This document shows positions 7,286 to 25,030 of a stretch of 64,000 nucleotides of DNA, in pieces (the stretch's first letter is position 1; the number at the start of each line of letters is the position of its first letter). The position numbers and the translations under genes are program-made. The notes below the pieces were generated by a model. The model was given only the letters and a program-made list of their open reading frames with translations, was not told the DNA's origin and ran no database searches. The DNA comes from Desulfuromonas sp. TF (GTDB taxonomy: Bacteria; Desulfobacterota; Desulfuromonadia; Desulfuromonadales; ATBO01), in NCBI RefSeq assembly GCF_000472285.1, contig NZ_KI421413.1, positions 181,167 through 245,166 of the forward strand, written 5' to 3'.

Positions 7286-9865
7286 ATGTCTCCTCGTCCC
7301 GACCATCGGCTTTACAACAGCCGCGTCATTGATACTTATCTCCGCCTGTTGCGAAAATCCTATCCCCAGGTTGAAATTCCGATTCTGCTCGACTACTCCG
7401 GGATGAAACCTTACCAGACAGCCGACCCCGGTCATTGGTTCTCACAGAAGCAGATCGACCGCTTTTATGACAAACTGGTAGAACTGTGCAAGAATCCCGA
7501 TGTTGCACGCGAGGCGGGGCAATACGCCGCTTCGGCCGATGCACTGGGATCTTTCCGTCAGTACGTTCTGGGCATGTTGGGCCCCTCCAGTGCCTTTGCG
7601 TTCATCGGCAAGTCCGCCTCCCGCCTGACCCGTTCGGCTTCGTACACCTCGCGTCGACTCGGTCCCTGTAAAGTCGAGGTAACTGTGCGACCTTACCCCG
7701 GCGTAGAGGAGAGAGAATTCCAGTGCGCCAACCGATTGGGGTGGTTCGAGGCGGCGGTGCGACTATTTGATCAAAAAATGGAAAAAATTGAACACCCTCA
7801 GTGTCTTTTCCGGGGTGATTCGGTTTGCCGATATGTCATCTCCTGGACGAAGCTTCCTTTCACTTTTTGGAAAAAATTACGGAACATAGGACTTCTCAGC
7901 CTCCCTCCGCTCTTTGCGTCCCCCTTCATTTTTTCATCCTTTATTTCTCCCCTTCCCCCTCTTCTGGGAGGGTCGCTGATTGTTTCGCTTCTGGCGCTTT
8001 TTGCTGAGATCGAGGATAAGATCAGGCTCAAAAACCAGGTTGACCAGATCCGTCAAGAAACAGATAAAGCTCTGAACAAGATCAACATGAATCATGACAA
8101 TGCGCTGCTGACCGAAGAGGTTGGCCGCGCCATCAGTCAGGAAACTCACCTGCAATCGATCCTGGAACGCGTGGTGGAGCTGATATCTCAACAGATGAAT
8201 TTTGACCGGGTGATGGTTTTTCTCCCCAACCGGGAACAAACCTGTCTCGAACTTCGTGCAGAGTATGGCTTTTCCGAAAGCAGTCGGGTCCTGCTCCAGG
8301 ATCTTTCACTTCCCATCGATCCTTCCCATCGAGAAAGGCTTGTGGCCAAAGCCTTTTGGGAGCAGGAATCGGTCCTGGTGGAGAATCTGGATGAAATGAA
8401 AGGGGCCTTTTCCCCCGAGGGGTTCCGCCTGATTAAGGAATTGAGAGCAGAATCCTTTCTTTGTTGCCCCATCGTCTGCAACGGCACGTCTCTGGGGATT
8501 CTGGCAGCGGATAAAAATACTGAGAACAACCCCCTTTTACAAACCGACCTGAGTCTGATGGATGGGATTGCCGCCTATATCGGCATCGCCATGAGAAATG
8601 CCGATCTCCTGGCGAACATGGAGAGACAGTTGGCGCAGATCCGGGAAAAGGACGAAGAACTCGCCAGACATCGAGAAAATCTAGAGGAACAGGTCAAAGT
8701 TCGAACGATTCAGCTTCTGGAGGCTTTACGGGTTGCCGAAGCTGCCAGCAATGCCAAAAGTGAGTTCCTGGCCAACATGAGCCATGAAATTCGCACCCCC
8801 ATGACCGTTTTCATGGGAGTTGTCGAACACCTTCTTCAGATCGACACAAATCCCGAACGACATCGCATGCTGGAAATGGCGGATCAGTCGGCCCAGCGCC
8901 TGCTCTCCCTGATCGACGATATCCTCGACCTGTCCCGGATCGAGGCGAGTGGAATAGAGATCGAGGAAAGGGAATTCGAACCTCGAAAATGCGTTGGCGG
9001 TGCGGTGGGCTTGTTCCGCCTCTCCGCCCGGGAGAAGAACCTCCGGCTCGAAATAAAAGTTGCGCCCGACGTCCCTAACAGGGTGCTCGGTGATCCGGAC
9101 AAGCTGGGGCAGGTGCTGATCAACTTGGTCGGGAATGCCCTCAAATTCACCCATGATGGTGAAATCCTGGTCTCCGTTCGCCCTTGCGGCGGCACCCTGG
9201 AGTTCGCGGTGGCCGATACGGGTATCGGCATCCCGCAGGAAAAACAGCATCTGCTTTTTAAGAGTTTCAGCCAGACGGACAACTCTTTTCACCGCCAGTA
9301 CGGCGGCAGCGGACTGGGACTGGCGATATCCAAAGGGCTGGTGGAACTGATGGGAGGGCAGATAGATGTTCTGAGCCGGCAAGGAGAAGGAAGCATCTTT
9401 ACCTTCACCCTTCCTTTAAAGGTCGTTTCCGTAAACAAGAGCGCAGAAACACCTGAAATTCCGCCCGTAGATCCTGTCAGGGAAAGTCGTTCAGCCCGCA
9501 TCCTTTTTGCCGAAGATGATCCCGCAATCCAGGAGTTGGTTAAACTGGTCCTTGTCCGAGGCGGCTGGCAGCCGGAGACCGCAGAGACAGGACGGGAGGC
9601 TTTAGAAAAATGGGGGCGGGAAAAATTCGATCTGATCCTGATGGATCTTCAGATGCCCGAGATGGACGGGATCGAGGCGGCCCGCGAGATCCGCAAAAGG
9701 GAAGCGGAAGAAGGCGGGAAACGCACCTGCATCATCGGCCTGACCGCTCATGCCAGCCGCGAGATCAAAGAGGAATGCCTGACATCAGGAATGGATCAGG
9801 TCCTGACAAAGCCCGTCAAGATAAATGACCTCTTTTCGGCTATCGATGCCGGCCTTTCAGACTGA
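7286..9865 (+). CDS. Hybrid sensor histidine kinase (novel sensor domain, GAF, HisKA, HATPase, receiver)
   Basis: 859 residues, ATG at 7286 with a GGCAGGAAACC leader. Layout: a soluble N-terminal domain of about 190 residues ending in a cysteine-containing CLFRGDSVCRY motif reminiscent of V4R small-molecule-binding domains; a hydrophobic hairpin of two helices (about 196-240); coiled coil; a GAF domain (about 280-440); coiled coil; a HisKA dimerisation helix with His500 in the ANMSHEIRTPM box; an HATPase domain with G boxes (GIGIPQ and GGSGLGLAIS); and a C-terminal receiver with phospho-acceptor Asp787 in LILMDLQMPEMDG. It should sense a small molecule and relay phosphate internally. No partner output regulator is adjacent. 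The identity of the N-terminal domain is inference. Confidence 0.9.
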   Translation: MSPRPDHRLYNSRVIDTYLRLLRKSYPQVEIPILLDYSGMKPYQTADPGHWFSQKQIDRFYDKLVELCKNPDVAREAGQYAASADALGSFRQYVLGMLGPSSAFAFIGKSASRLTRSASYTSRRLGPCKVEVTVRPYPGVEEREFQCANRLGWFEAAVRLFDQKMEKIEHPQCLFRGDSVCRYVISWTKLPFTFWKKLRNIGLLSLPPLFASPFIFSSFISPLPPLLGGSLIVSLLALFAEIEDKIRLKNQVDQIRQETDKALNKINMNHDNALLTEEVGRAISQETHLQSILERVVELISQQMNFDRVMVFLPNREQTCLELRAEYGFSESSRVLLQDLSLPIDPSHRERLVAKAFWEQESVLVENLDEMKGAFSPEGFRLIKELRAESFLCCPIVCNGTSLGILAADKNTENNPLLQTDLSLMDGIAAYIGIAMRNADLLANMERQLAQIREKDEELARHRENLEEQVKVRTIQLLEALRVAEAASNAKSEFLANMSHEIRTPMTVFMGVVEHLLQIDTNPERHRMLEMADQSAQRLLSLIDDILDLSRIEASGIEIEEREFEPRKCVGGAVGLFRLSAREKNLRLEIKVAPDVPNRVLGDPDKLGQVLINLVGNALKFTHDGEILVSVRPCGGTLEFAVADTGIGIPQEKQHLLFKSFSQTDNSFHRQYGGSGLGLAISKGLVELMGGQIDVLSRQGEGSIFTFTLPLKVVSVNKSAETPEIPPVDPVRESRSARILFAEDDPAIQELVKLVLVRGGWQPETAETGREALEKWGREKFDLILMDLQMPEMDGIEAAREIRKREAEEGGKRTCIIGLTAHASREIKEECLTSGMDQVLTKPVKINDLFSAIDAGLSD

Positions 9866-9870
9866 AATCA

Positions 9871-10386
9871 TCATCCGCCGGTTTGAGCTTCTCCGCCTCT
9901 CTGCTTCAGCAGACCCTCAAATTTCCGTTCCATCCCCTTGGTTATTTCCTCATCGCTCGCGCCCGCATTCTTCCACAACAGCGCCAGCATCGCCTGGCCA
10001 TAGCAGATGTTGCAAGAGACTGCATGGTCGTCGTACTTGCCGCCGGTCTTTCCGTCTTTGACAAAGCAGTCCAGCAGGGTTTTGTGCCCCATGGCATCGC
10101 AGAAGCAGTAGCAGGGGATTTTCCGCAACATCTCGGGTTCCTTGACCGCGATCCGGTAACCTGTCTCCACCGGATCGCTGGAGAAGACGAACTTGGGAAA
10201 CCGGAAGGCGTCCCAGTCCTCTTCGGGATACTTCTTCTCCAGCAGGGCCGAAGCTTCCGCGGTCAGATCCTCCATCTTCAATTGAAGGATGCGGTCGAAT
10301 TCCTGCTGGTCGACGGCCACGGCCGGGGCTGCAAGGGCTGCGATCAGCAGTGGGAGACAGACGGTCATCAGTAATTTGCGAATCAT
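9871..10386 (-). CDS. Secreted PCYCGC-motif-type protein
   Basis: 171 residues starting at the ATG at 10386, preceded by CAGGAG. The reading frame is open much further upstream, but that part is out-of-frame cytochrome b sequence. Residues 1-22 are a signal peptide (MIRKLLMTV to APAVAV). The mature protein has the cysteine cluster IPCYCFCDAMGH, then DCF and SCNICYGQA, which matches the PCYCGC-motif family (PF13798-like) of unknown function found in envelope or lipoprotein form. The cysteines and His suggest metal or redox-cofactor binding. It is the last gene of the bc-complex operon, 17 bases after cytochrome b, so it probably helps assemble or serve that complex; this is inferred from position. 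Confidence 0.7.
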   Translation of the reverse strand: MIRKLLMTVCLPLLIAALAAPAVAVDQQEFDRILQLKMEDLTAEASALLEKKYPEEDWDAFRFPKFVFSSDPVETGYRIAVKEPEMLRKIPCYCFCDAMGHKTLLDCFVKDGKTGGKYDDHAVSCNICYGQAMLALLWKNAGASDEEITKGMERKFEGLLKQRGGEAQTGG

Positions 10387-10403
10387 CGGATGCTCCTGTT
10401 CTG

Positions 10404-11450
10404 TTAGGGTGAGAAAGGCCACACAAGGGCCCAGTTCGGGCCCCTCAGCCAGCGGCCGACGATGATAAGGGTAATCTGGCTGAGGAGAAGGAGGATGAAG
10501 AAAATATCCAGCCGGCGGCGGTCGCGAGCGAACCATTGTCCTCCGGAATTCGGGCTGCGGTCTAGCCATGGGACGGAAATCAGGAAAATGGCGATCAGGG
10601 CCGGGGCAACGACGCCGCCGAAGAACGCGGAATGGCTGACCATCTCCTGCAGGCCGACGAAGTACCAGGGGGCCTTGGCCGGATTCGGCGGATGCAGGGG
10701 GTCGGCCCGCTCGGCCAGAGTCGCGGGGAGGACGAGGGCCAGACCGACCAGGGCGGCGAAGGTCAGCAGGGCGACCGCGCCCTCCGCCCGGTAGAGCCAG
10801 GGATCGGTCGGCAGCCGCTCCCTGTCGGCGGCCGGCGGCGCCGCTAGGCCTCCGTCCTTTCGAATGCGCCAGAGATGCAGGGCGGCCAGGACAACGAGGA
10901 GCAACGGGACGGCGCCGGCGTGCAGGGCGAAGGAGCGAAGAAGGGTTTCTCCGCTGACCTCGGTGCCGCCGAGCACGAGGCGCTGGGCCTCGGTGCCGAC
11001 GAGGGGGAAATAGGCCGCGAGGCCGGCGCCGACCTGCGCCGCCCAGTACGAGATCTGGTCCCAGGGAAGGAGATAGCCGGTGAAGTTGGACAGCAGCAGG
11101 AGAAACAGCATGGCCAGGCCGTAGAGCCAGTTCAGGCGCCGCCCCCGGTAGGCGCCGGTGAGAAAGACCCGGGCGAGGTGAAGGACCGCCAGGATAACCA
11201 GGGCGTTGGCGGCGACAAAGTGGAGATTTCGCACCAGCCCTCCGTAATGGAGGGTGGTGGAGATATGCAGGATGCGCTCGTAAGCCTTCTCCTGATCCGG
11301 TACGTAGTAGAGGAACAAAGTGAAGCCGGTCGCCAGCAGCACCCCCAGACAGGTGAGGCTGGCGATTCCCAGCCCGAGGGTGGTCAGGGGATGCACCGTC
11401 CTTTGCCTGATTTGCGGCGGATGGAGATGGTGGAGGAAATTGCGTCTCAT
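10404..11450 (-). CDS. Cytochrome b subunit of a quinol-oxidising bc/b6f-type complex
   Basis: 348 residues with about eight membrane helices. The two b hemes are ligated by two His pairs: LHFVAAN...LHLARV with 13 residues between them and ALHAGAV...LHLWRI with 14. The 13/14 spacing is that of cytochrome b6 rather than mitochondrial-type cytochrome b (13/13). The subunit-IV part is fused at the C-terminus and carries the quinol-site motif as APWYF in place of PEWY. The protein should oxidise menaquinol at the periplasmic side, passing one electron to the Rieske cluster and one through the b hemes. It is part of the operon cytochrome c, Rieske, cytochrome b, PCYCGC protein. Confidence 0.92.
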   Translation of the reverse strand: MRRNFLHHLHPPQIRQRTVHPLTTLGLGIASLTCLGVLLATGFTLFLYYVPDQEKAYERILHISTTLHYGGLVRNLHFVAANALVILAVLHLARVFLTGAYRGRRLNWLYGLAMLFLLLLSNFTGYLLPWDQISYWAAQVGAGLAAYFPLVGTEAQRLVLGGTEVSGETLLRSFALHAGAVPLLLVVLAALHLWRIRKDGGLAAPPAADRERLPTDPWLYRAEGAVALLTFAALVGLALVLPATLAERADPLHPPNPAKAPWYFVGLQEMVSHSAFFGGVVAPALIAIFLISVPWLDRSPNSGGQWFARDRRRLDIFFILLLLSQITLIIVGRWLRGPNWALVWPFSP

Positions 11451-11511
11451 ATCGTCCAGCTTTCAATGCCCGAAGATCAGATTCCAGAGTCCAAAATGAA
11501 GCAGGTTGGGA

Positions 11512-12009
11512 TTAGACCTTGGACCCGGGACTCACGACTCGGGGCTGCTTTTCAAGTTCTACCCACATCGGCTCGGCCCGCTTCTCCCCCGTGTGAATCC
11601 ACACGCGGTCTCCCACTAATCGCACGGCATGCCATGGAAGATCGACCTTGGCCGGACCGCTGAATACTTCTCCCCGCGGACCGAACTCGCTGCCGTGGCA
11701 GGGGCAGAAGAAGCCCTGGTCCATGGTGTTCACCAGGCAGCCCAGGTGCGTGCATCTGAGACTGATGCCGGCGAGGCGATCTCCATCGCGGATGACCGCC
11801 ACCTGCCGCTCCGGAAAGGGGAAGGTCTTCTCGGCGGAGAGTGCGGCGAGGGGCGCAACTTCCGTCCATCGAGCAGAAGAGAATCGTCCGGCCGCCCTCC
11901 AGACGTCGGCCAGAATGCCGGCGAAGGCGGCGAAAGTACTGCCGAGCAGGGTGTAAAGCAATCCCCTACGGAGCCATGCGCGGCGCCCTGGGTTCCGCAA
12001 TTCGTTCAT
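11512..12009 (-). CDS. Rieske [2Fe-2S] subunit of the bc complex
   Basis: 165 residues from the ATG at 12009; an upstream in-frame extension is unlikely because it reads only through cytochrome c coding sequence. The N-terminus has an RRAWLRRG twin-arginine-like stretch and one transmembrane anchor (about 15-35). The cluster-binding boxes are CTHLGC (Cys86, His88) and CPCHGS (Cys102, His105), with Cys91/Cys104 positioned to form the stabilising disulfide. It should carry an electron from quinol to cytochrome c. The 5' end overlaps the cytochrome c gene by 44 bases, which suggests translational coupling. The 3' end contains a GGACCCGGGACT-type repetitive stretch, so the last few residues may be recent additions. 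Confidence 0.92.
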   Translation of the reverse strand: MNELRNPGRRAWLRRGLLYTLLGSTFAAFAGILADVWRAAGRFSSARWTEVAPLAALSAEKTFPFPERQVAVIRDGDRLAGISLRCTHLGCLVNTMDQGFFCPCHGSEFGPRGEVFSGPAKVDLPWHAVRLVGDRVWIHTGEKRAEPMWVELEKQPRVVSPGSKV

Positions 12010-13684
12010 CGAATTCTCCCGAAAAAATCCGAACTCTATCGACGAGCCCCCACAGCTCCGCCGCGGACAGGCGCGAGCCGAAAGACGGCATGGCCGTCCC
12101 GGGCACGCCATCGCGGATTGTCAGTGCCAGCCGGGCATCCGGCATGCCGTCGAAATAAGGATGGTTGGTGAGATTGCGCGGGCGCGGCAAGTAACGCAGG
12201 TGCTCGGGACCTTTGCCGGTGCCTGTCTTACCATGGCAACGGACGCACAACTTCTCATACAGGTTATCGGCTGCCGCCTTGGTCATCGGAGCAACAGGTC
12301 GGCTCGGCGGCGGCGGGATTTCCGTCTTCTCTCCTCTCGGGATGCCGACGAAGGCGGCGAAGACCAGATCGAGAAGCCCTTCGCGTTCCTCGGCATGCAG
12401 GAGACGACCGTAAGGGGGCATGCTCGTCCCCGGTATCCCCTTCTCCACGCTGCGCCTCAGCCGCTCGTCCTCCACGCGCCGGAAGAAAGGAGCATTGCCG
12501 GTGAAGGCGCGGGGGAAACCGGCCAGGTTCGGCTGGATGACCCCGAAGCCGTCTCCCGCTGCCGCATGACAGCGCTGACAGAGAGCCATATACAGGTGCT
12601 TGACGGCCGGCGTCGCCGCACTGTCACCATCCTCGGCCTCGACAGGCTCCGCACCGCCGTGAACATCCTTGACGGGTCCAACGGCCGTGGATGTCAGGAA
12701 GGCGATCAGACGTTTCTCCTCCTCGGCGGGCATCGGGACCGTCGGCATCACCGCGCCCGGGATCTTCCGGCCAGGGCTGGCCATGAAGGCTTTCAGATAT
12801 TCGGTCGAGCGCATATCCCCGATCCAGGTCAGGTCGGGGGCGATGCCGCCGTCCTCCGATCGGAAGCGGTGGCACCCCAGGCACCGCCGTGCGGCCAGGA
12901 CCTCCCCAGCCGGAGGGATGTCCTCCGGAACCGTGATCTTTACCTCCGGCAGGCGAACCTGCCCAGCCTGGACCTGCATCGGAGTGGCATAGAAGGGGTC
13001 CTTCACCCGGCTCTTGAGAAAGAAAGCGATTTCTCTCGCCTGGGTCGCCGAGAGGGGAAAACGCGGCATGATGGAGTTGGGCGGCTCTTTTTTCGGATCG
13101 CGTATCGCCTCGACGATTTCGTCCAGGCCGAGCTGATTCCCGACGTCGCTCAGGTCGGGACCGAAGCGGCCGCCCTGATCTCGCCCGGCAATATGGTGGC
13201 AGGTGTCGCAGGCGCTGGCCGTGAACCGCTCATATCCACGCCAGGCTTTTTCCGCCCCGGGAAGCGGGCTCGGCGGATGGCAACGAAAACAGCTTCCCGG
13301 CAGATCTTTTCCCGCCAGGACCCGGCGCGCCCCCTGTCCCGGCACTCCATGGGAGAGCACCGTGTCCAGGGCCATGCCTTCCCCCAGATGGCATCCGGTG
13401 CAGCCAAGTTTTTCCCGGGAATGAGGAGCGATATCCGGATGCGCCGCTCCGGTGCCAGGTCGTCCCCCCTCGACATGGCAGGTGGTGCAGTGCTCATGGA
13501 CCGGCCGCCCCCCCAGGTTAATGACCATGTCGGCGACCTGATGAACGTGTCCCTGCCGCCAGCCGAAAAAGAGCGCAGTCAGGACGGCTACACCCGCCAG
13601 GCAGGCGGCAGCGAGAAAAAGGTGGTTGAGCCAACTGGGCTCCCGGATAGGCGTGCTTTCGGACATATTGGGCCGCTTTTTCAT
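11966..13684 (-). CDS. Seven-heme membrane-anchored cytochrome c of the bc complex
   Basis: About 572 residues with one N-terminal membrane helix (HLFLAAACLAGVAVL) and the rest periplasmic. Seven CxxCH heme sites are visible: CTTCH, CTGCH, CFRCH, CDTCH, CLGCH, CQRCH and CVRCH. The first four are clustered as in multiheme cytochromes, with HIAGRDQGGRFGPDL following the fourth; the last three sit in class-I-like domains with distal Met motifs such as GTSMPPYG and GTAMPSFG. It is the first gene of the operon with Rieske and cytochrome b and replaces the usual mono-heme c1. It would deliver electrons to periplasmic multiheme carriers. The start is uncertain (ATG at 13756, 13684 or 13666, none with a clear ribosome site); 13684 was chosen as a compromise. 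Confidence 0.88.
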   Translation of the reverse strand: MKKRPNMSESTPIREPSWLNHLFLAAACLAGVAVLTALFFGWRQGHVHQVADMVINLGGRPVHEHCTTCHVEGGRPGTGAAHPDIAPHSREKLGCTGCHLGEGMALDTVLSHGVPGQGARRVLAGKDLPGSCFRCHPPSPLPGAEKAWRGYERFTASACDTCHHIAGRDQGGRFGPDLSDVGNQLGLDEIVEAIRDPKKEPPNSIMPRFPLSATQAREIAFFLKSRVKDPFYATPMQVQAGQVRLPEVKITVPEDIPPAGEVLAARRCLGCHRFRSEDGGIAPDLTWIGDMRSTEYLKAFMASPGRKIPGAVMPTVPMPAEEEKRLIAFLTSTAVGPVKDVHGGAEPVEAEDGDSAATPAVKHLYMALCQRCHAAAGDGFGVIQPNLAGFPRAFTGNAPFFRRVEDERLRRSVEKGIPGTSMPPYGRLLHAEEREGLLDLVFAAFVGIPRGEKTEIPPPPSRPVAPMTKAAADNLYEKLCVRCHGKTGTGKGPEHLRYLPRPRNLTNHPYFDGMPDARLALTIRDGVPGTAMPSFGSRLSAAELWGLVDRVRIFSGEFDERIAEPRAPRMAP

Positions 13685-13852
13685 GGTTCGATACTGGAAG
13701 CCGGTTGAATCGGGCCTATAAATTCTCCGGTGCGGTTGCGGTGTAAGTTCCACCATCCGAGCGGGAAAGTTGCTCGATCCGACCCTTGCAGTTTACCTTT
13801 AATCGACGGTTCATATTCTCAAAAGAGCAGGATTTCCCTTGGGAATCTCGTC

Positions 13853-13896
13853 GAAAACAAAATAGCCGCACGGAAAGGAACCTTCCGCGCGGCTAT
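13853..13896 (-). terminator. Rho-independent terminator after the small lipoprotein gene
   Basis: On the minus strand, arms ATAGCCGC and GCGGCTAT (extended by GGAA/TTCC) close a hairpin followed by TTTTGTTTT. It lies 33 bases after the stop of the lipoprotein gene at 13929. It also separates that gene from the bc operon. Confidence 0.75.
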
Positions 13897-15081: not shown

Positions 15082-15594
15082 TTATTTCACCATGTGCTCG
15101 AAATGATACTGGCGCTTCTCGCCGTCCTTGAGCTTGGTGCCGACCATGAATTCATACTTCCCGGCTTTTTCCAGGACGATATCGGCTCCGAAGTGCCCTT
15201 CCATCCCCATCAGCTTGACGGGACCCATCTCGTTTCCAGCGGGATCCTTGATCTTCACGGCCACGGTCCCTTCGGTAATCTGCTCACCGGCGGCGTCGAC
15301 GAAGGCGACCATGAAGTGGTGGGTCTCCTTCATTCCCATTTTGGCCATGGCTTCCTTGACGTCGTTGAGATGGGCCATGGCCTTGACGCCGTCTTGGGTC
15401 TGCTCGCCGAGCATGACCATGGCACCATGCATTCCCATGCCGCCATGTTCTCCATGTTTCATTCCCTCCATTTTTCCGTGATCCATCCCTTCCTTTTTCC
15501 CGTGGTTTTCATGCTCCATGGCGGCGAAGGCGGCCAGGGGAGCGGCAAGGGCGAACAGGGCTGCGAACAACAGTACGATCGTTTTTCTTTTCAT
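15082..15594 (-). CDS. His/Met-rich periplasmic metal-binding protein of the cus operon
   Basis: 170 residues from the ATG at 15594 (ribosome site GGAGGTAAG). Residues 1-25 are a signal peptide ending AAFA. The next 32 residues are dense in His, Met and Lys (MEHENHG, then repeats of MDHGKMEGMKHGEHGG), which is typical of Cu(I)/Ag(I)-binding tails. The remaining domain (about 65-170) is beta-rich and resembles YtkA/FixH-like folds. It is the fourth gene after cusC, cusB and cusA (62-base gap) and ends at a terminator, so it likely acts as a periplasmic metal chaperone or buffer in place of CusF. It is not a sequence match to CusF, so that equivalence is inference. Confidence 0.7.
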   Translation of the reverse strand: MKRKTIVLLFAALFALAAPLAAFAAMEHENHGKKEGMDHGKMEGMKHGEHGGMGMHGAMVMLGEQTQDGVKAMAHLNDVKEAMAKMGMKETHHFMVAFVDAAGEQITEGTVAVKIKDPAGNEMGPVKLMGMEGHFGADIVLEKAGKYEFMVGTKLKDGEKRQYHFEHMVK

Positions 15595-15656
15595 TGTCTT
15601 ACCTCCGATTCTGTTTTTTTGTCGCGGATGATTCCGCGGTGGATGTTCGATTTTCG

Positions 15657-18600
15657 TCATGCCTGCGTTTCATGCACTTCTCCCTCTTCTATATCCCCCT
15701 CGGCGGTGGGGACGAAGGAGGAGTCCAGTTTACGGCTGCGCCACAGGTAGTAGATGACCGGGTAGACCATCAGTTCCATGATTCCCGAGGTCACCACCCC
15801 GCCGACCATCGGCGCGGCGATGCGCTTCATCACGTCCGCGCCGGCGCCGTGGCTCCACATGATGGGGAGCAGGCCGGCGATGATCACCGAGATGGTCATG
15901 ATCTTGGGGCGGATACGTTTGACCGCCCCGTGGTGGATCGCCTGCCGCAGGTCGCCGCGGGTGAGCATGCGCCCGTTGTCGCCCCACAGCTTGTGGGAAA
16001 GATCGAGATAGAGGAGCATGACCACCCCCGTCTCCGCATCCAGCCCGGCCAAGGCGATCACCCCGACCCAGACGGCCACCGAGGTGTTGTAGTCGAGCAC
16101 ATAGAGGAACCAGAAGGCCCCGACCAGGGAGAACGGCACGGCCAAAAGGACGATCCCCGTTTTGATCAGGCTCTTGGTGTTCATGTAGAGAATGACGAAG
16201 ATGATCAGCACCGTCAGGGGGATGATGACGATGAATCGCTTCTTCGCCTCCTGCATGTATTCGAACTGCCCGCTCCAGACGATGCTGTACCCGGGCGGCA
16301 ATTCGATGGATTCCGCCACCGCCTCCTGCGCCCGCTTCACGTAGGTGCCGATATCGATGCCCTTGATGTCCACGTAGATCCAGGCGGTGCGTCGGGCGTT
16401 TTCGCTCTTGATGCTCGGCGGGCCCTTCTGGATCACGATATCCGCAACCTGGGAGATGGGGATGTGGGTGCCGTTTTTGAGGGGGACGAGAACCCGCTCC
16501 AAAGATTGCAGGTCGTTGCGGTAGTCGCGCTTATAGCGGATGTTGACCGGGTAGCGCTCGAGCCCCTCGACGGTGGTGGTGACGTTCATGCCTCCGATGG
16601 CCGACTGGATGATGTCCTGCACCTCGCCGACGGTGAGCCCGTAGCGGGCGGCGGCTTCTCGGTCGATGACGAAATCGAGGTAATTGCCGCCGGTGACCCG
16701 CTCCGAGTAGGCGGAGAGCGTTCCCGGGACGGTTCGCACCAAGGCTTCGATCTCCTCGCCGATGTCGCTGAGGGTCTTCAGGTCCGGCCCCATGATCTTG
16801 ATGCCGACGGGGGTCTTGATGCCGGTGGAGAGCATGTCGATGCGGGTCTTGATCGGCATCGTCCAGGCGTTGGTGAGCCCCGGGAACTGTATGGCGTTGT
16901 TGAGCCGCTCCTTGAGCTCCTCCACATTGATGGAGCGCTCCTCCGGCCAGAGCCACTCCAGCGGGGCCCGGGCCCATCCGGTCCAGTCCGGCCAGTGCGA
17001 GTAGAAGCGCTCCACCGGGATCTTCCGCCACTCCTCTTCGGGCCTGAGCATGATGGTGGTCTCGATCATGGACAGCGGCGCAGGATCGGTGGCCGTCTCG
17101 GCGCGGCCGATCTTGCCGAAGACGTGGTGTACCTCGGGGAACTCCTTGATGATTTTGTCGGTCTGCTGCAGCAGCTCCCGTGCCTTGGTGATAGAGATTC
17201 CCGGCAGGGTGGTGGGCATGTAGAGCAGGTCCCCTTCGTAGAGGGGCGGCATGAACTCCGAACCCATCTTCGACAGGGGCCAGGCGATGGAGAGGATCAG
17301 CAGCAGAGCCACCAGCAGGGTGGCGCTGCGCCACCTGAGGACGAAATCGACCACCGGGTGATAGATCCGGATGAGAAAGCGGTTGATGGGATTCTCGTCC
17401 TCGGACTTGATCTTTCCGCGGATGAACCAGACCATCAGCACCGGGACGATGGTGACGGAGAGGATCGCCGCCGCCGCCATGGAATAGGTCTTGGTATAGG
17501 CCAGCGGCTTGAACATGCGGCCGGACTGCTCCTGCAGGGCAAAGACGGGAATAAAGGAGACGGTGATCACCAGCAGCGAGTAGAAGAGGGTCGGACCGAC
17601 CTCCACCGCCGAGTCGCGGATGATCTTCCAGTGGGGCTTTTTCCCCTGATAGCGCTCCAGGTGCTTGTGGGCGTTCTCGATCATGATGATCGCCGCGTCG
17701 ATCATCGCCCCGATGGCGATGGCGATTCCGCCCAGGCTCATGATGTTGGCGTTTATCCCCTGGGCATTCATGATCACGAAAGCCATGAGGAGGGCCACCG
17801 GCAGGGTGAAGATCGCCACCAGTGCGCTCGGCAGGTGGAAGAGGAACAGGGCGGTGACCAGGGCCACCACAATGCTCTCCTCCAGCAGCTTCTCCTTGAG
17901 GGTTTCCACCGCTCGCTCGATGAGCCCGGAGCGGTCGTAAACGGTGACGATCTCCACACCCTCGGGAAGCCCGGCCTTGAGCTGTTCCAGTTTCTCCTTG
18001 ACCCGCTCGATGGTGGCCAGGGCGTTCTCGCCGAAACGCATGACGATGATGCCGCCGGCGACTTCTCCCTGTCCGTTGAGTTCGGCGATGCCGCGGCGCA
18101 GCTCCGGTCCGATTTTGACTTCGCCCAGATCGCGCACCAGCACCGGCGTCCCCCGGTTGTCGGTGCCGACGACGACGTTTTCCAGATCCTCCCTTGATTG
18201 GATGTACCCCTTGCCGCGGACCATGAACTCGGTCTCGGCCATCTCGATGAGCCGCCCGCCCACATCGTTGTTGCTGCGCTGGATCGCCGCCTTGATCTGT
18301 GGGATGGTGAAATGATAGGCAAGCAGCCGCACCGGATCGACGGTTATCTGGTACTGCTTGACGTAGCCGCCGATGCTGGCGACCTCCGAAACTCCTTCCA
18401 CGGCGGTCAGTTCATAGCGCAAAAACCAGTCCTGAATCGAGCGCAGCTCCTGCAGGTCGGTCCTCCCGTCACTGACCAGGGCATACTCGTACACCCAGCC
18501 GACGCCGGTGGCATCGGGTCCCAGGGACGGTGTCACCCCTTTCGGCAGTTTGCCCGAAGCGTAGTTCAGATACTCCAGTACCCGGGAGCGGGCCCAGTAG

Positions 18601-18908
18601 ATGTCCGTCCCCTCCTCGAAGATGATATAGACGAAGGAAAAGCCGAAAAAAGAGTAGCCGCGCACCACCTTGGACCCAGGAACCGCCAGCATCTGGGTGG
18701 TCAGGGGATAGGTGACCTGGTCCTCCACCACCTGGGGCGCCTGCCCGGGATATTCGGTGAAGATGATCACCTGCACGTCCGAGAGATCCGGAATGGCGTC
18801 GATCGGCGTCTTGAGCAGGCTATAGATTCCCGCGATGATGACGAAGACCGTCAGCAGAGCGAGCATGAACTTGTTTCGTATGGAGATGTCGATCAATTTT
18901 TCAAGCAT
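15657..18908 (-). CDS. cusA: CusA-type heavy-metal RND efflux pump
   Basis: 1083 residues, the usual length for heavy-metal-efflux RND pumps. Two homologous halves each have six helices and a large periplasmic loop. The segment GGIAIAIGAMIDAAIIMIEN holds the charged proton-relay helix characteristic of the CusA/CzcA subfamily, and the C-terminal half has GLDAETGVVMLLYLDLSH. The pump takes Cu(I)/Ag(I), or possibly other divalent metals, from periplasm or cytoplasm and exports it through the outer-membrane partner. The CusB-like partner and the His/Met-rich protein next door favour monovalent copper/silver. It sits 53 bases downstream of cusB. An 867-codon open frame on the opposite strand is a composition artefact. 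Confidence 0.93.
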   Translation of the reverse strand: MLEKLIDISIRNKFMLALLTVFVIIAGIYSLLKTPIDAIPDLSDVQVIIFTEYPGQAPQVVEDQVTYPLTTQMLAVPGSKVVRGYSFFGFSFVYIIFEEGTDIYWARSRVLEYLNYASGKLPKGVTPSLGPDATGVGWVYEYALVSDGRTDLQELRSIQDWFLRYELTAVEGVSEVASIGGYVKQYQITVDPVRLLAYHFTIPQIKAAIQRSNNDVGGRLIEMAETEFMVRGKGYIQSREDLENVVVGTDNRGTPVLVRDLGEVKIGPELRRGIAELNGQGEVAGGIIVMRFGENALATIERVKEKLEQLKAGLPEGVEIVTVYDRSGLIERAVETLKEKLLEESIVVALVTALFLFHLPSALVAIFTLPVALLMAFVIMNAQGINANIMSLGGIAIAIGAMIDAAIIMIENAHKHLERYQGKKPHWKIIRDSAVEVGPTLFYSLLVITVSFIPVFALQEQSGRMFKPLAYTKTYSMAAAAILSVTIVPVLMVWFIRGKIKSEDENPINRFLIRIYHPVVDFVLRWRSATLLVALLLILSIAWPLSKMGSEFMPPLYEGDLLYMPTTLPGISITKARELLQQTDKIIKEFPEVHHVFGKIGRAETATDPAPLSMIETTIMLRPEEEWRKIPVERFYSHWPDWTGWARAPLEWLWPEERSINVEELKERLNNAIQFPGLTNAWTMPIKTRIDMLSTGIKTPVGIKIMGPDLKTLSDIGEEIEALVRTVPGTLSAYSERVTGGNYLDFVIDREAAARYGLTVGEVQDIIQSAIGGMNVTTTVEGLERYPVNIRYKRDYRNDLQSLERVLVPLKNGTHIPISQVADIVIQKGPPSIKSENARRTAWIYVDIKGIDIGTYVKRAQEAVAESIELPPGYSIVWSGQFEYMQEAKKRFIVIIPLTVLIIFVILYMNTKSLIKTGIVLLAVPFSLVGAFWFLYVLDYNTSVAVWVGVIALAGLDAETGVVMLLYLDLSHKLWGDNGRMLTRGDLRQAIHHGAVKRIRPKIMTISVIIAGLLPIMWSHGAGADVMKRIAAPMVGGVVTSGIMELMVYPVIYYLWRSRKLDSSFVPTAEGDIEEGEVHETQA

Positions 18909-18961
18909 TGCAATCCAATCCTCTGCGACAGGGTGGGCGAGGCGGCGGGTCAGGTACTTTT

Positions 18962-20464
18962 TTACCTGAACAAATCGTCCAGTTTCTCGTCACCCTTTCC
19001 TCCGGCCTCTTCGCCGAAGAGATCGTCAAGGCTTTCACCCTCGTGCCCCTCGTGTGCGGCCGGGGCGGGCTGTTTCGGCTCCATCATCTTGGAGATCGCC
19101 TCACGCAGCTGGCTTTCGGAATCGAGCATGAACTGGGCGGAGGTCACCACCCACTCGCCAGGCAAGAGTCCTTCCTCGACCTGGATATAACCCTTTTCGC
19201 CCCGCAGTCCGGTGCGAATCTGCCGGGGTTCGAACTTGCCGTCGCCGAGAGCGACGAAGACGGTACTTGACTCACCGGTATCCATGACCGCCTCGCTGGG
19301 GATCGCCAGCACATCCTTAACCGTCTGGGCATCGATGAGCACGTTGACATACATGTCCGGTTTCAAGGTGTACTCTGGATTATCCAGAACGATGCGGGCC
19401 TTGACGGTGCGGGTCTTCGCCTCCAGGTAAGGATAGATCTGATCGATCTTTCCCCGGATCGGCTCCCCTCCGTAAGGAAGTTCCACTCTGGCTTCCTGCC
19501 CCACCTTGACCCAGGGCAGTTCATATTCGTAGATGTCGGCATAGATCCAGACGTTAGAGATGTCCGAGATCCTGAACAGCTCCATACCCGCCTGGATGCG
19601 CTGCCCCTCATTGGCCATCTTCAGGGTCACGATGCCGTCGTAGGGGGCATAGAGCGTCATGGACTTCTTCACCTCTCCGGTCTTCCGAAGCCTTTCGATC
19701 TGCCGGTTGGAGATGTCCCAGTAGTTCAGGCGCTTGCGGGAGGACTCAAGAAGGCGCTCCGCTCCCTCGGCGATCTCGGGAAAGGGGCTCTTCTCCAGCC
19801 TGGACTTGTTGTTCAGGGCCAGCAGATACTCTTCCTGCGCGGCGACAAGCTCGGGGCTGTAGATGGAGAGGAGTGGCTGACCTTTTTTGATGAACTGTCC
19901 GGTTTCATTGACATGGAGAGTCTCGATCCATCCGCCGATCTTGGCATTGATCGAAAATTGTCTGGGCTCCTCGTACCCGACCAGGCCGACGGTGCGCACC
20001 GTCCGTTTGAGATCGCGCCGAACCGCCTCGGCTGTGCGGACTCCCATGTTCTGCTGGGTCACCGGGTCGATCCGGATGACCGAACCGCCGGGCGCCTCAT
20101 CCTCGTAGACGGGAACGAGATCCATCCCCATGGGGGATTTGCCCGGCTCGTCGCGGATGTAGGTCGGATCCATCGGCGCCACCCAGTACTTGATTTTGCG
20201 CTCGCCTCCGGCTTGGGCAGTTTTTGCGGCTCCACCGACGGATTTCAACGGAGTCAGGTTCATTCCGCAGATGGGGCAGGTCCCCGGTTCGTCCTGGATA
20301 ACGAAGGGATGCATGCCGCAGGTGTACTGCGCGGCTTCTGCCGGGGCGGCAGCCGTGGTCTCGGAATCCTCCGGAGAAGGAAATTTCTGCAGGGAAAGGG
20401 CTCCCACCACGGCCATGAGAATAACAATGAGCACCAGAAAGAATTTTTCACGTCGGGTCATCAC
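18962..20464 (-). CDS. cusB: CusB-type periplasmic adaptor of the metal efflux system
   Basis: 500 residues. An N-terminal membrane anchor (FFLVLIVILMAVVGALSL) is followed by two metal-binding segments: TCGMHPFV...CPICGMN at about 48-72, and YWVAPMDP...SPMGMDLVPVY. The second is the CusB-specific Met-containing motif. Next come the biotinyl-lipoyl-like, alpha-hairpin and beta-barrel domains of membrane fusion proteins. The C-terminus is acidic and disordered with a repeated LDDLF motif. It bridges CusA and CusC and passes metal to the pump. It lies 14 bases after cusC in one operon. Confidence 0.92.
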   Translation of the reverse strand: MMTRREKFFLVLIVILMAVVGALSLQKFPSPEDSETTAAAPAEAAQYTCGMHPFVIQDEPGTCPICGMNLTPLKSVGGAAKTAQAGGERKIKYWVAPMDPTYIRDEPGKSPMGMDLVPVYEDEAPGGSVIRIDPVTQQNMGVRTAEAVRRDLKRTVRTVGLVGYEEPRQFSINAKIGGWIETLHVNETGQFIKKGQPLLSIYSPELVAAQEEYLLALNNKSRLEKSPFPEIAEGAERLLESSRKRLNYWDISNRQIERLRKTGEVKKSMTLYAPYDGIVTLKMANEGQRIQAGMELFRISDISNVWIYADIYEYELPWVKVGQEARVELPYGGEPIRGKIDQIYPYLEAKTRTVKARIVLDNPEYTLKPDMYVNVLIDAQTVKDVLAIPSEAVMDTGESSTVFVALGDGKFEPRQIRTGLRGEKGYIQVEEGLLPGEWVVTSAQFMLDSESQLREAISKMMEPKQPAPAAHEGHEGESLDDLFGEEAGGKGDEKLDDLFR

Positions 20465-20478
20465 AGATACTCTTCGGA

Positions 20479-21780
20479 TTACGGGTTTACGGGGTTGGAA
20501 TCGGCGGACGGACCCGCAATTCCCACTCCGGACTCAGCCTCGAGCCGGGCCAGGCTTTTTTGGTAATCGGCCTGCACCCGGTAGTATTCCAGGTTGTACC
20601 GATACAAGGTCATCAGGCTGTCCAGGAGGGAGAGAAAATCGACCGATCCGACCTGGTAGGCGCTCACCGATGCCTGGTAGGACTGTCCGGCCTGGGGGAC
20701 GATCCCGGATTCATACAGCCGAAGCAGGTCGCGGTTCTTCTCCATCTGCGCATAGCCGTCGGCGATGTTGAACTCGACCGTGTTGCGAAAATCGTCGTAC
20801 TGACGCAGGGCCATGCGGACTCCCGACTCGGCCTCGGCCACGGCCGCATGCCTTTTCTGCCGGTAGACGGGGAGATTCACGCTGAACTCGAGGCCTACGA
20901 AATCGGTGCCGTCGTCGTTGCGGTTTTTCTCCCGGAACGTATAGGCGGCTCCGACGTTGAAGTCAGGGTAAAAGTTTCTTTTCGCCAGCTGTTTTTCGAC
21001 CCGGTACCGCTCCACCAGCGATTCGTAGGCGGCATACAGGGGTCGCCGGGAGCGGGATTGTTCCAGCAGCGCGTCGAGGGATAGGGTCACTGGCGGAGTC
21101 TCCAGTTCAGTCGGTGTCTCCAGGGGGGAGCCCGTGGGACGGGCAAGGAGGCGGTTGAGGTTTTCCAGAGCGGTGCGGCGCTGCTGCCGCAGGGTGAAGA
21201 GCCGGTCCATGAGTTTTGAACGCTCCACCTGGGCCTTGAGAACGTCCTGCTGCAGACCCTGCCCCACCTCGTAACGAGTTTCCGTCAACCGGGTAAAATC
21301 GTCGAGAAGAGCCATGTTCTTCTCAGTCACCTCGATCCCCCGGTTGTAATAGTAAAGGTTGTACCACCCCTCCCTGACCATGCGACCTAATTGCAGACGG
21401 GCATCGTCGTAAGCAGCACGGTACCACTCGGCCTGCTCCCCGGCGATCTCTCCGCGCAAGGCCAGCTTGCCGGGGAAGGGAAACTTCTGGCTCACCTTGA
21501 AAATCCGGCCGGTCATGGGCGTCTCATCGGCGGCCAGGGAATCGACCGGGAAATTGTTGAACACGATGCCGGCAACGGGATCCTCGAGCGCCTCGACCTG
21601 GGATATCTTCTCGGCATTCATTTCCCAGCGGGCCCGGGCGGCCTGCAGGTCGGGATTGTTGGCCAGGGCCTCCTCCACCAGAGCGTCGAGAACGGCCGGA
21701 GTGTTCTCCGCTGCGGCAGGAGCAATGCCTGTGAAAAAGAGGGCGAGGGCAAGGCACCAGCGTCCGAGTGAAAATTTCAT
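20479..21780 (-). CDS. cusC: TolC-family outer membrane efflux channel (CusC-like)
   Basis: 433 residues from the ATG at 21780, chosen because GGAG lies eight bases upstream and a signal peptide follows directly (KFSLGRWCLALALFF to PAAA). The body is two repeats of the outer-membrane efflux protein domain with long alpha-helical hairpins (for example EEALANNPDLQAARARWE and RLEAESG near the C-terminus). It forms the trimeric outer-membrane exit duct of the tripartite pump. It is the first gene of the minus-strand cusC-cusB-cusA operon. The 288 bases upstream, shared with the divergent peptidase gene, contain a perfect 18-base palindrome but no gene that I trust. Confidence 0.9.
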   Translation of the reverse strand: MKFSLGRWCLALALFFTGIAPAAAENTPAVLDALVEEALANNPDLQAARARWEMNAEKISQVEALEDPVAGIVFNNFPVDSLAADETPMTGRIFKVSQKFPFPGKLALRGEIAGEQAEWYRAAYDDARLQLGRMVREGWYNLYYYNRGIEVTEKNMALLDDFTRLTETRYEVGQGLQQDVLKAQVERSKLMDRLFTLRQQRRTALENLNRLLARPTGSPLETPTELETPPVTLSLDALLEQSRSRRPLYAAYESLVERYRVEKQLAKRNFYPDFNVGAAYTFREKNRNDDGTDFVGLEFSVNLPVYRQKRHAAVAEAESGVRMALRQYDDFRNTVEFNIADGYAQMEKNRDLLRLYESGIVPQAGQSYQASVSAYQVGSVDFLSLLDSLMTLYRYNLEYYRVQADYQKSLARLEAESGVGIAGPSADSNPVNP

Positions 21781-21939
21781 CTGACAACTCCAAAAATGTG
21801 GGAACGACTCATTAATTTGTCCTCCCATTTGATCAAGAATAACGTTACCGATAAAAACAGAATACACGGATCATGCCTAAACGAAAACATGCGGCGAACT
21901 CCATACTTAGACGAACTCGACCTCCAAGACCTCCAGAGA

Positions 21940-22068: not shown

Positions 22069-24162
22069 ATGAAAAATCTGTTGGCTCCCATCCTATTTTC
22101 CCTGATTCTCCTGCTGCCCTGGCAAGGGCCGCCGCTTCCCTGCGCGCTCGGCGATACGGGACCGGCCATCCTTCGTCATGACCTGCATGCGATCCTGATC
22201 CCTGGCGAAAAAACACTGCAGGTGACCGACACCCTGACCCTCGCCCCTGCCGGCGAGTCGAGGATTGTCCTATTCCTCGCCGCCGCGTCCCGGATTGAGC
22301 GGGTGCTGATCGAAGGGCAGCCGGCCTCTTATCGTTTCTCAGGGGACCGGCTTACCATCAACCTTCCCCATCCGACGCCGGAGGAGGCCGCCCTGCTCGT
22401 CGAGTACCGAGCCGTCTTCGACGATGTTGTTCCGGACCAGCCCCTGCACAGCGAGGATCCCACCTACGGCGTCGCCGCCGCCATCACTCCCCGGGGGACT
22501 TTCCTCTCCGGCTCCGCCGGCTGGTATCCGCATATCCCCGGCTGCACAGCCCGGTACCGCGTTCGCCTGGAGGCTCCCCGGGGGATGGAAGGGGTCACCT
22601 CGGGCCGCCTGCTCGAACGGGGCGAGGAGGATGGCAGGAGCTTTTCGGTGTGGGAGACGTCCTCTCCCCTTCCCTCCCTCACCCTTGCCGCCGGGCCTTA
22701 TCAGGTCAGCCGCGAGATGGCCGGGAATATACCGGTGTACACCTTTTTCAGCCATGAAAACTCCGCTCTTGCAGCAACTTACCTCAATGCCGCTAAAGAA
22801 TACCTTGAACTCTATCGAGATCTGTTCGGACCCTATCCGTATGAAAAATTCGCCGTCGTGGAAAATTTCTTCCCGACCGGCTACGGGTTTCCCTCCTGGA
22901 CCCTTCTCGGAAGCACCGTGGTTCGTCTCCCCTTCATTGTGGAGACGAGCCTCGGGCACGAGATCGCCCATTCCTGGTGGGGCACCGGCGTCCGGGTCGA
23001 TTATTCCGGAGGGAACTGGTCGGAAGGACTGACGACCTATGTGGCCGATCATCTGTACAAGGAGCGTTCTTCGGCCAAGGAGGGGCGCGAGTACCGGCAG
23101 AAGATACTGCGCGATTACGCCGCCCTGGTCTCATCGGCCGACGACTTCCCGCTTTCCGCTTTCACGGGCCGATCAAGCGCCTCAGACCAGGCGGTCGGAT
23201 ACGGCAAGGCGGCGATGGTCTTTCACATGCTCCGCAGGCAGGTCGGAGATGAAAACTTCTGGACCGGGCTGCGCAAGGCGGCTCAGGAGAACATGTTCCG
23301 GGAGGTATCCTGGAGCGAGCTGATCGATGCCGTCGGTGATTCGGCGGGACAGGACCTCTCCGGATTTTCCCGCCAGTGGGTGCAGCGCGAAGGCGCCCCG
23401 GTTCTGCGCCTGGAAGAGGTGAAGTCTCGGCGCAGCGGAGATCAATGGGTGGTCACAGGGCGTCTGCGGCAGGAGAAGCCGTTCTTCCGACTCTCTGTGC
23501 CGCTGCGCCTTGAAATGGAGGATGATTCCGAGGAATCATCGGTCGATCTGCACGGGGAGTCCTCCCCTTTTAATATTACGGCAGAGGCAGAGCCCCGCCG
23601 CCTGACCGCCGATCCCGGGGTCGATCTCTTTCGTCGGCTCGATCTGGCGGAGATCCCGCCGACGGTGAACGGCATCCGCGGCTCGAAGAACCTCCTTGTG
23701 GTGGTGTCCCGGGCCATTTCGAAGGAGACAGCGACCGCCGCCGCAACCCTGCTGGAGGCCATGCGGCAGAAAGGGGCTCGCCTGGTTCCGGAGAAGAAGG
23801 TCCGAAAGATCGATCTGACCGGCCATGACCTTCTCTTCCTCGGTTTCCCCGCCGATCCGGAGCTGCTGCCGCCCTTGCCGGAGACACTGAGGTGTACCGG
23901 GGAGGCCTGCACGGTCATGGACGAGCGATTCTCCGGCCCCGGGACAGCCCTCTTCGCCGCCTTCGCCCACCCCGCGGGCCCGGACCGGGCGGCGGCGGTC
24001 TTCGCTCCCTTTTCCGCCGAAGCCGCGCATGCGGCGGTCCGGAAGATCCCCCATTACGGCAAGTACAGCTATCTCGTCTTCGATTCAGGGAAAAATCGAC
24101 TCAAGGGGATCTGGCCCGCCGACGAATCCCCCCTCATTCATCATTTTGCGAAAGAGAGATGA
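22069..24162 (+). CDS. M1-like zinc metallopeptidase, exported
   Basis: 697 residues with a signal peptide (MKNLLAPILFSLILLLPW to CALG) and an AGGGGGC ribosome site. The gluzincin motif HEIAH (His297-His301) with the downstream glutamate in WSEGLTTY (Glu319) identifies an M1 aminopeptidase-like catalytic domain. The spacing is 17 residues where typical M1 enzymes have 18. The beta-sandwich N-terminal domain (about 30-200) fits the family; the GAMEN exopeptidase motif is not evident. The C-terminal 200 residues look like a separate alpha/beta domain. It should degrade peptides in the periplasm. The ChaN-type gene follows after 4 bases, so the two are cotranscribed. Confidence 0.8.
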   Translation: MKNLLAPILFSLILLLPWQGPPLPCALGDTGPAILRHDLHAILIPGEKTLQVTDTLTLAPAGESRIVLFLAAASRIERVLIEGQPASYRFSGDRLTINLPHPTPEEAALLVEYRAVFDDVVPDQPLHSEDPTYGVAAAITPRGTFLSGSAGWYPHIPGCTARYRVRLEAPRGMEGVTSGRLLERGEEDGRSFSVWETSSPLPSLTLAAGPYQVSREMAGNIPVYTFFSHENSALAATYLNAAKEYLELYRDLFGPYPYEKFAVVENFFPTGYGFPSWTLLGSTVVRLPFIVETSLGHEIAHSWWGTGVRVDYSGGNWSEGLTTYVADHLYKERSSAKEGREYRQKILRDYAALVSSADDFPLSAFTGRSSASDQAVGYGKAAMVFHMLRRQVGDENFWTGLRKAAQENMFREVSWSELIDAVGDSAGQDLSGFSRQWVQREGAPVLRLEEVKSRRSGDQWVVTGRLRQEKPFFRLSVPLRLEMEDDSEESSVDLHGESSPFNITAEAEPRRLTADPGVDLFRRLDLAEIPPTVNGIRGSKNLLVVVSRAISKETATAAATLLEAMRQKGARLVPEKKVRKIDLTGHDLLFLGFPADPELLPPLPETLRCTGEACTVMDERFSGPGTALFAAFAHPAGPDRAAAVFAPFSAEAAHAAVRKIPHYGKYSYLVFDSGKNRLKGIWPADESPLIHHFAKER

Positions 24163-24166
24163 AACC

Positions 24167-25030
24167 ATGAAGCGCATTCGGATTGTCTCCTTCACCATAT
24201 TGCTGATCGTCGGACTCCATCTGTGGAACACCGCCCCCGCCGACGCCCATATCCTGGCTGTTGCCGATGGGAAAGTCGTCTCTCTCGAAGAAGTGATCGA
24301 TGACCTGAAGGGGGTCCGTCTGGTTTTCATGGGAGAACTCCATGACCATCCGGGCCACCACATGGCTCAACTGCAGGTTATCCGAGCGCTCCACGACGCG
24401 GGAGTTCCCGTAGCCATCGGGCTGGAGATGTTCCGAACCGACAGCCAGAAGGCGCTTGATATGTGGGTGGAGGGCAGGATCTCTGAGAGGAGATTTTTAA
24501 GGACATATTTCGACAACTGGAGCATGTGGCCCGAGTACCGGGAGATCTTTCATGAAGCGAGGGGAAGGAAGATCCCCATGGTGGGGCTGAACATTTCCCG
24601 GAAGATCACCCAGCAGGTCGCCCGCAGCGGATTCGCATCCCTCTCGCCGAAGGAGGTGGGACAGCTGCCGGGGAAGGTGCGCTGCGATGTCGACCAGGAA
24701 TACAAAGAGTACATACGCCGGGTTCTCGGCGGCCACGCACACAACAACTCCACCTTCGACAACTTCTGCGAGGCGCAACTGCTCTGGGACACGGTCATGG
24801 CTGACGCCCTGCTCGGCTTTCTCGCAACGCACCCGGAACACACCGTCGTGGTGCTGACCGGAAGCGGCCACGCATGGAAATACGGCATTCCTGAGCAGAT
24901 CAGGCGGGAAGCCGAGGTCCCTTACCGGGTGCTGCTGCCGGAAATCCCCGGCCGGGTTGAGGCCGGGAGCATTACCGCGGCGGAGACCGACTATCTCATG
25001 CTGGGGCTGGAGGAGGCGCCGCTGCATTAG
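24167..25030 (+). CDS. ChaN-family (haem-binding uptake, Tiki-like) protein
   Basis: 287 residues from the ATG at 24167, four bases after the peptidase stop. Residues 1-26 are a signal or anchor segment (IRIVSFTILLIVGLHLW). The PF04187 signature follows: VFMGELHDHPGHHMAQL near the N-terminus, GLEMFRTDSQ, and VVVLTGSGHAWKYGIP near the C-terminus. ChaN of Campylobacter is an iron-regulated haem-binding lipoprotein, and related folds include Tiki/TraB metalloproteases. Whether this copy binds haem or cleaves peptides cannot be decided from sequence. It directly abuts the convergent gspB gene: the two stop codons touch with no base between. Confidence 0.8.
   Translation: MKRIRIVSFTILLIVGLHLWNTAPADAHILAVADGKVVSLEEVIDDLKGVRLVFMGELHDHPGHHMAQLQVIRALHDAGVPVAIGLEMFRTDSQKALDMWVEGRISERRFLRTYFDNWSMWPEYREIFHEARGRKIPMVGLNISRKITQQVARSGFASLSPKEVGQLPGKVRCDVDQEYKEYIRRVLGGHAHNNSTFDNFCEAQLLWDTVMADALLGFLATHPEHTVVVLTGSGHAWKYGIPEQIRREAEVPYRVLLPEIPGRVEAGSITAAETDYLMLGLEEAPLH

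Follow-up and report, generated by a model that had tools for sequence, protein, structure and literature searches.

The window analysed here is a stretch of 64,000 nucleotides from Desulfuromonas sp. TF (G000 in our survey), and positions 9871-13684 of its minus strand hold a four-gene operon that runs from a cytochrome c through a Rieske protein and a cytochrome b to a protein of the PCYCGC family (Table 1). Its genes either overlap or are separated by gaps of 17-61 bp. We take the four genes as one unit, since a hairpin with a T-rich tail lies on the upstream side, between the operon and a small gene (14186-13929), and the downstream neighbour (7286-9865), a hybrid histidine kinase, is convergent to the operon. 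A scan for consensus promoters yielded no hits beyond those expected by chance, and a site for a copper regulator could not be established. A first-pass annotation of this DNA had reported this gene set with seven CxxCH motifs, a histidine spacing of 13/14, an APWY motif and the PCYCGC protein, all of which we confirm with exactly these end coordinates.

Table 1. Features of the operon and of its genomic context (positions in the window)
Feature	Position	Strand	Basis
Heptaheme membrane-anchored c-type cytochrome, candidate c subunit of the bc complex	11966..13684	-	PF13442 x3, PF00034; seven CxxCH
Rieske [2Fe-2S] protein	11512..12009	-	PF00355 38.7 bits; CTHLGC...CPCHGS
Cytochrome b, b6 and subunit IV fused	10404..11450	-	PF00033 134.6 bits, PF00032 30.6 bits
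PCYCGC / CYCXC family periplasmic protein (predicted), 171 aa	9871..10386	-	PF13798 60.9 bits
CYCFC motif (Cys92, Cys94, Cys96)	10099..10113	-	three Cys invariant in 28 aligned sequences
C-terminal CNIC motif (Cys125, Cys128)	10003..10014	-	selenocysteine at first Cys in some homologues
Hairpin with T-rich tail, probable terminator of the upstream small gene	13850..13896	-	by eye; absent from the consensus scan list
Met/His-rich secreted protein, candidate metal-binding (context)	15082..15660	-	no Pfam match
CusA, Cu/Ag-type RND efflux pump (context)	15657..18908	-	PF00873 776 bits; 54% identical to E. coli CusA
CusB-like membrane fusion protein, heavy-metal-binding domain (context)	18962..20464	-	PF16576, PF19335
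CusC-like outer-membrane efflux protein (context)	20479..21867	-	PF02321

The heptaheme protein has 572 residues, with CxxCH at residues 66, 95, 132, 159, 268, 369 and 480 and a single N-terminal transmembrane helix as read by eye; its start may lie a few codons downstream of 13684, and its AlphaFold2 model (pLDDT 47) was discarded. There is no c1-type gene within the operon, and therefore the heptaheme protein is the only candidate for the c subunit, which supports the earlier proposal that it stands in place of c1. The evidence speaks neither for nor against the further suggestion that this subunit could pass electrons directly to periplasmic wires. Cytochrome b (348 residues) carries its heme-ligand histidines at 77/91 and 177/192, with 13 and 14 residues between them as in b6, and its Qo-site motif is APWY at residue 260, a variant of the canonical PEWY; both the four histidines and APWY are invariant in 15 aligned sequences. 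The 13/14 spacing in two helices and the CTHLGC...CPCHG motif of the Rieske protein in the same operon place the complex in the bc superfamily. On aligning the heptaheme proteins, all seven heme sites were found in 16 of 17 sequences and six in the other. As the heme sites are conserved and many families have the same set of four genes, the operon is not due to chance. We also considered whether the operon serves heme-copper oxidases and set this aside, because the distribution of COX1 is not decisive: of 13 operon genomes 11 have it, G018 and G033 lack it, and it is common in other genomes.

The Geobacter Ext complex is a near relative of this cytochrome b, and its extHIJKLMNOPQS cluster includes a Rieske protein (extO), a cytochrome b (extP), extQ and multiheme cytochromes (PMC5877670, PMC2825233). 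Both clusters thus bring together a Rieske protein, a b6-type cytochrome b and multiheme c. Membership in the Ext complex was rejected, as the cytochrome b scores 214.8, 89.8 and 28.4 bits against the ExtP, ExtQ and ExtS equivalogs (NF040969, NF040970 and NF040971), for which the cut-offs are 290, 150 and 100 bits. Unlike Ext, the operon has b6 and subunit IV fused, a PCYCGC gene in place of ExtH-ExtL, and one heptaheme c with class-I-like domains as against 4-, 5-, 10- and 12-heme proteins. The host genome has a separate and closer Ext-like cytochrome b (L061). In the actinobacterial cytochrome bcc the diheme QcrC, a multiheme class-I-type c protein, replaces c1; it has two hemes as against seven here, and the cytochrome b of the window falls below the QcrB-type cut-off. 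It may be noted that the host genome has a third Rieske/cytochrome b set with a five-heme cytochrome (L140, 1422-8833), which adjoins large molybdopterin-type and NrfD-like genes (names taken from the translations).

The last gene of the operon encodes a full match to PF13798 (cut-off 25 bits) with the CYCxC motif and the conserved cysteine pattern of the PCYCGC / CYCXC (seleno)protein family OS_HP4 (PMC13188914), although it scores 64.2 bits against a cut-off of 90 for the CYCXC equivalog of OS_HP4 (NF041379). The family record gives no function, and the members found in bc operons form a clade of their own. By eye the protein has an N-terminal signal peptide; it has no further transmembrane helix and no heme motif. 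Eight Cys/His positions are invariant in the alignment. Its AlphaFold2 model is all-helical (pLDDT 87), and a Foldseek search of the model against the PDB gave no match at E <= 0.001, which is not proof of a new fold; with VIA-align the best Z was 2.9 and no CcmH chain was among the fold matches, so that the fold searches are uninformative. We found no sequence relative in the PDB and none in the viral contigs searched.

Some homologues of this protein carry selenocysteine at the first position of the C-terminal motif, where the window protein has a cysteine (Cys125). An in-frame UGA is present there in L068, inside a bc operon, and at the same position in L103, L117, L122, L123, L124, L126, L129, L131, L132, L136 and L139, and by alignment in L138. 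Hairpins are possible after the UGA in the homologues that were folded, and the genome of L068 encodes SelB (400 bits). These cases agree with PMC13188914, which lists PF13798 among the UxxC selenoprotein families, and the selenocysteine position points to a redox-active or metal-binding thiol at this site. In Thermomicrobium roseum the annotated PCYCGC gene (L173, NC_011961.1, 573004-573450) ends with a TGA exactly at the selenocysteine position, past which the frame continues into the conserved C-terminus and then a hairpin; this is probably a missed selenoprotein.

A resemblance to CcmH was seen on profile comparison. With hhalign, 28 PCYCGC proteins against nine CcmH proteins gave a probability of 84.4% (E 7e-6, 57 columns), in which the CYCxC cluster is paired with the CxCxC of CcmH along with the helices that follow. 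The same comparison gave 21% for reversed CcmH, at most 6.5% for 30 column shuffles and at most 3% for 43 unrelated families. Since the Pfam model of CcmH (PF03918) has zero matches among the 28 proteins even at E 10, we call the protein CcmH-like and not CcmH, and at this moderate hhalign probability it looks distantly related to CcmH. CcmH/CycL, which belongs to system I, is likewise helical, with a CxCxC-type cluster followed by a GKxxxEIxxxxxxKYG-like helix pair, and both proteins recur in cytochrome maturation clusters. Thus in G152, a genome of the same phylum, one reading frame (L104, 6462-7565) joins a CcmH-like stretch (23.6 bits, cut-off 25), a DUF1573 domain and a PCYCGC domain (78.6 bits), and it sits downstream of ccm genes, with CcmF and CcmA-C identified by their translations. 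In several families the PCYCGC gene lies between Rnf genes and genes of the TPR, ResB, CcsA-type, TlpA-like and CcdA-like kinds (representatives checked with Pfam); a copper pump was not found near these Rnf/system II clusters. The PCYCGC protein differs from CcmH/CycL in having the extra His101 and His121 and the C-terminal CxxC, in lacking a C-terminal transmembrane helix, and in a host that uses system II. The last is a probable assignment: CcmH was not found in the host genome and ResB is present, and for the same reason a CcmH-like step is not obviously needed there.

The first-pass annotation had asked for a survey of PCYCGC and bc operons in related genomes, and the linkage recurs. We searched 98 genomes of the order, using the NF041379 model for PCYCGC and our own profile for the heptaheme protein; many of these are MAGs with short contigs, and the neighbourhoods come from six-frame calls and not from curated annotation. 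PCYCGC was found in 19 of the 98 genomes, the heptaheme protein in 17 and both in 16. Hence PCYCGC is present in 16 of the 17 heptaheme genomes as against 3 of the other 81 (Fisher p = 1.7e-14, uncorrected for relatedness but spanning many families), and the one heptaheme gene without it (G046) is at a contig end. On dividing the 17 heptaheme loci by layout, 13 have an intact operon in which PCYCGC immediately follows cytochrome b, and two (G020 and G046) are truncated by the end of a contig; among the loci uncut by contig ends, PCYCGC adjoins the bc operon in 14 of 15. The operon is also present in two genomes outside the class but within the phylum (L114, L119) and in a Myxococcota MAG (L068), the latter with PCYCGC as the first gene. 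The distances between PCYCGC proteins correlate with the corresponding distances for the heptaheme protein (r = 0.84) and for cytochrome b (r = 0.82), with Mantel p = 0.0002, and in the tree the PCYCGC proteins of bc operons fall in one clade (100/98), which also includes a few from loci that lack the operon. In G020 a five-heme protein follows PCYCGC (L047, 970-2820), on a contig that begins just ahead of the PCYCGC gene.

In most genomes the surroundings of the operon relate to copper export. Upstream of it in the window lies cusCBA (15657-21867), whose CusA retains the Met triad M573/M623/M672 that marks Cu/Ag-type pumps, as well as M391, M403, D405, E412, M486 and M1009. The Met/His-rich protein listed beside it is similar to one that is encoded close to PCYCGC in L131 (E 1.5e-6). 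In 9 of the 17 genomes (G000, G012, G013, G015, G019, G024, G036, G046 and G050) a Cu-type CusA lies no more than about 11 kb from the heptaheme gene, as against a pump this near in some 3% of genomes by chance (our estimate, for a genome of 3.5 Mb with about five pumps from the wider family). Four more have Cu+-ATPase genes near the heptaheme locus (G018, G033, G039 and, as a fragment, G009), and the CPC, YN and MxxSS motifs are present in the Cu+-ATPases checked. The likeness to the CusCFBA copper/silver efflux system extends to L059, where the gene ahead of cusCBA, in a position like that of cusF, is PCYCGC; this is a likeness to CusF in gene position, with no sequence relation known. PCYCGC genes on plasmids outside the phylum have similar company: in Burkholderia multivorans and Paraburkholderia an RND pump, a copper-binding protein and DsbD (with a multicopper oxidase and HiPIP also in the Paraburkholderia island), on a B. 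contaminans plasmid cueR, a petA-type Rieske gene, a multicopper oxidase and HiPIP, on an Exiguobacterium plasmid CopD, a heavy-metal ATPase and a multicopper oxidase, and on a Paenibacillus plasmid a heavy-metal ATPase and an ArsR regulator. The Priestia and Thermomicrobium copies have no copper context at their loci, and several plasmid and Acidobacteria copies have neither copper nor maturation context. A shared neighbourhood is by itself no proof of a common function. In the B. contaminans island (L175, 3717-4337) two genes separate the petA-type Rieske gene from PCYCGC, and this locus is a second, independent association of Rieske, PCYCGC and copper genes. Beyond cusCBA in the window (22069-25030) are genes for an M1 peptidase and a ChaN heme-binding protein, and the same pair follows PCYCGC in L043, L045 and L052.

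The reading that we prefer, at somewhat short of an even chance, is that three genes of the operon code for a quinol:cytochrome c oxidoreductase of the Rieske/cytochrome b type whose c subunit has seven hemes, and the fourth for a periplasmic CcmH-like thiol/Cu(I)-handling factor that would protect heme attachment. We infer the periplasmic location of the PCYCGC protein, its thiol and Cu(I) activity, the heptaheme protein as its client and the service of the complex under copper stress. Copper in the periplasm disturbs the assembly of cytochrome c (Durand 2015, as cited in PMC6247083 and PMC7558416), and CcmH acts as a reductant of CxxCH in apocytochrome c (PMC3884852); we combine these two precedents in proposing a thiol/Cu(I)-handling role. 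As a CcmH-like, Cys/His-rich thiol protein placed where copper handling meets cytochrome c maturation, PCYCGC may hold the CxxCH thiols of apocytochrome c in the reduced state and clear of Cu(I), or may scavenge the Cu(I) that blocks heme attachment, and a client with seven heme sites could then be built in a copper-rich periplasm. The heptaheme bc subunit would be its usual client in copper islands. The assembly part of the assembly or redox role suggested earlier thus belongs to the best-supported reading, given the resemblance to CcmH, the fusion and the occurrence in maturation clusters; membership of the complex is not supported.

A role for PCYCGC as a structural or redox subunit of the bc complex, which the earlier note allowed, would suit its place as the conserved final gene of the operon and its correlated divergence with the genes of the complex. 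The G039 locus is degraded, with the heptaheme gene cut to four hemes and the Rieske frame running into the C-terminus of cytochrome b, from which truncation and joining by deletions we conclude that the complex is lost; yet its PCYCGC (L048) keeps all conserved cysteines, with a Cu+-ATPase gene about 115 bp further on. In G062 the bc operon is intact but the sole PCYCGC gene is elsewhere, directly upstream of cusCBA (L059), and in G007, G054 and G072 PCYCGC is present and the heptaheme gene was not found. Being retained where the complex is lost, PCYCGC is not an obligate subunit, and with neither a transmembrane helix beyond the signal peptide nor a heme motif, a subunit role is very unlikely.

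The same loci suit a protein that, in the manner of CusF, would act as a periplasmic Cu(I) chaperone or buffer for CusCBA or CopA, with the bc operon sharing its metal-stress island without being its client: PCYCGC immediately precedes cusCBA in L059 and L070, where bc genes are absent, it stays intact beside the Cu+-ATPase where the bc genes are broken (L048), it occurs in plasmid copper or heavy-metal islands, and it has eight invariant Cys/His positions. We consider this rather unlikely, as it leaves unexplained both the CcmH-like fusion with the maturation clusters and the co-diverging position as last gene of the bc operon in most genomes; further, selenocysteine in the CxxC suggests thiol redox chemistry over plain binding, though the protein may bind as well, and the islands of Burkholderia come with a copper-binding protein of their own. 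Less probable still is a dedicated maturation factor, a CcmH-like reductant for the heptaheme protein with no copper role, where the copper genes would reflect shared regulation or a hot spot of gene acquisition. The controlled hhalign similarity, the fusion, the maturation clusters, the seven heme sites of the partner and the system II clusters without copper pumps all favour it, whereas the copper context recurs in separate PCYCGC clades and in several phyla, and PCYCGC is kept in genomes without the heptaheme gene.

The thiol/Cu(I)-handling reading may be widened to a copper-stress respiratory module, in which the copper islands of metal reducers carry their own heptaheme bc complex and a CcmH-like Cu/thiol protein (a selenoprotein in some) that lets heme attach despite copper, as a copper-linked maturation factor that occurs with systems I and II; we put this forward tentatively, as rather doubtful. 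PF13798 is widespread and has no assigned function; its members here come from Bacillota, Pseudomonadota, Thermomicrobia, Acidobacteriota, Desulfobacterota and Myxococcota, and the link to CcmH and copper gives this orphan family a concrete, testable role. If true, the known toxicity of copper to cytochrome c assembly would be tied to a specific protective protein. The operon also adds a variant of the bc complex with a seven-heme c subunit. At 907-2406 of the window, at a distance of 7 kb from PCYCGC, lies the gene for a VKOR and SPW-repeat protein, possibly a disulfide-forming membrane protein.
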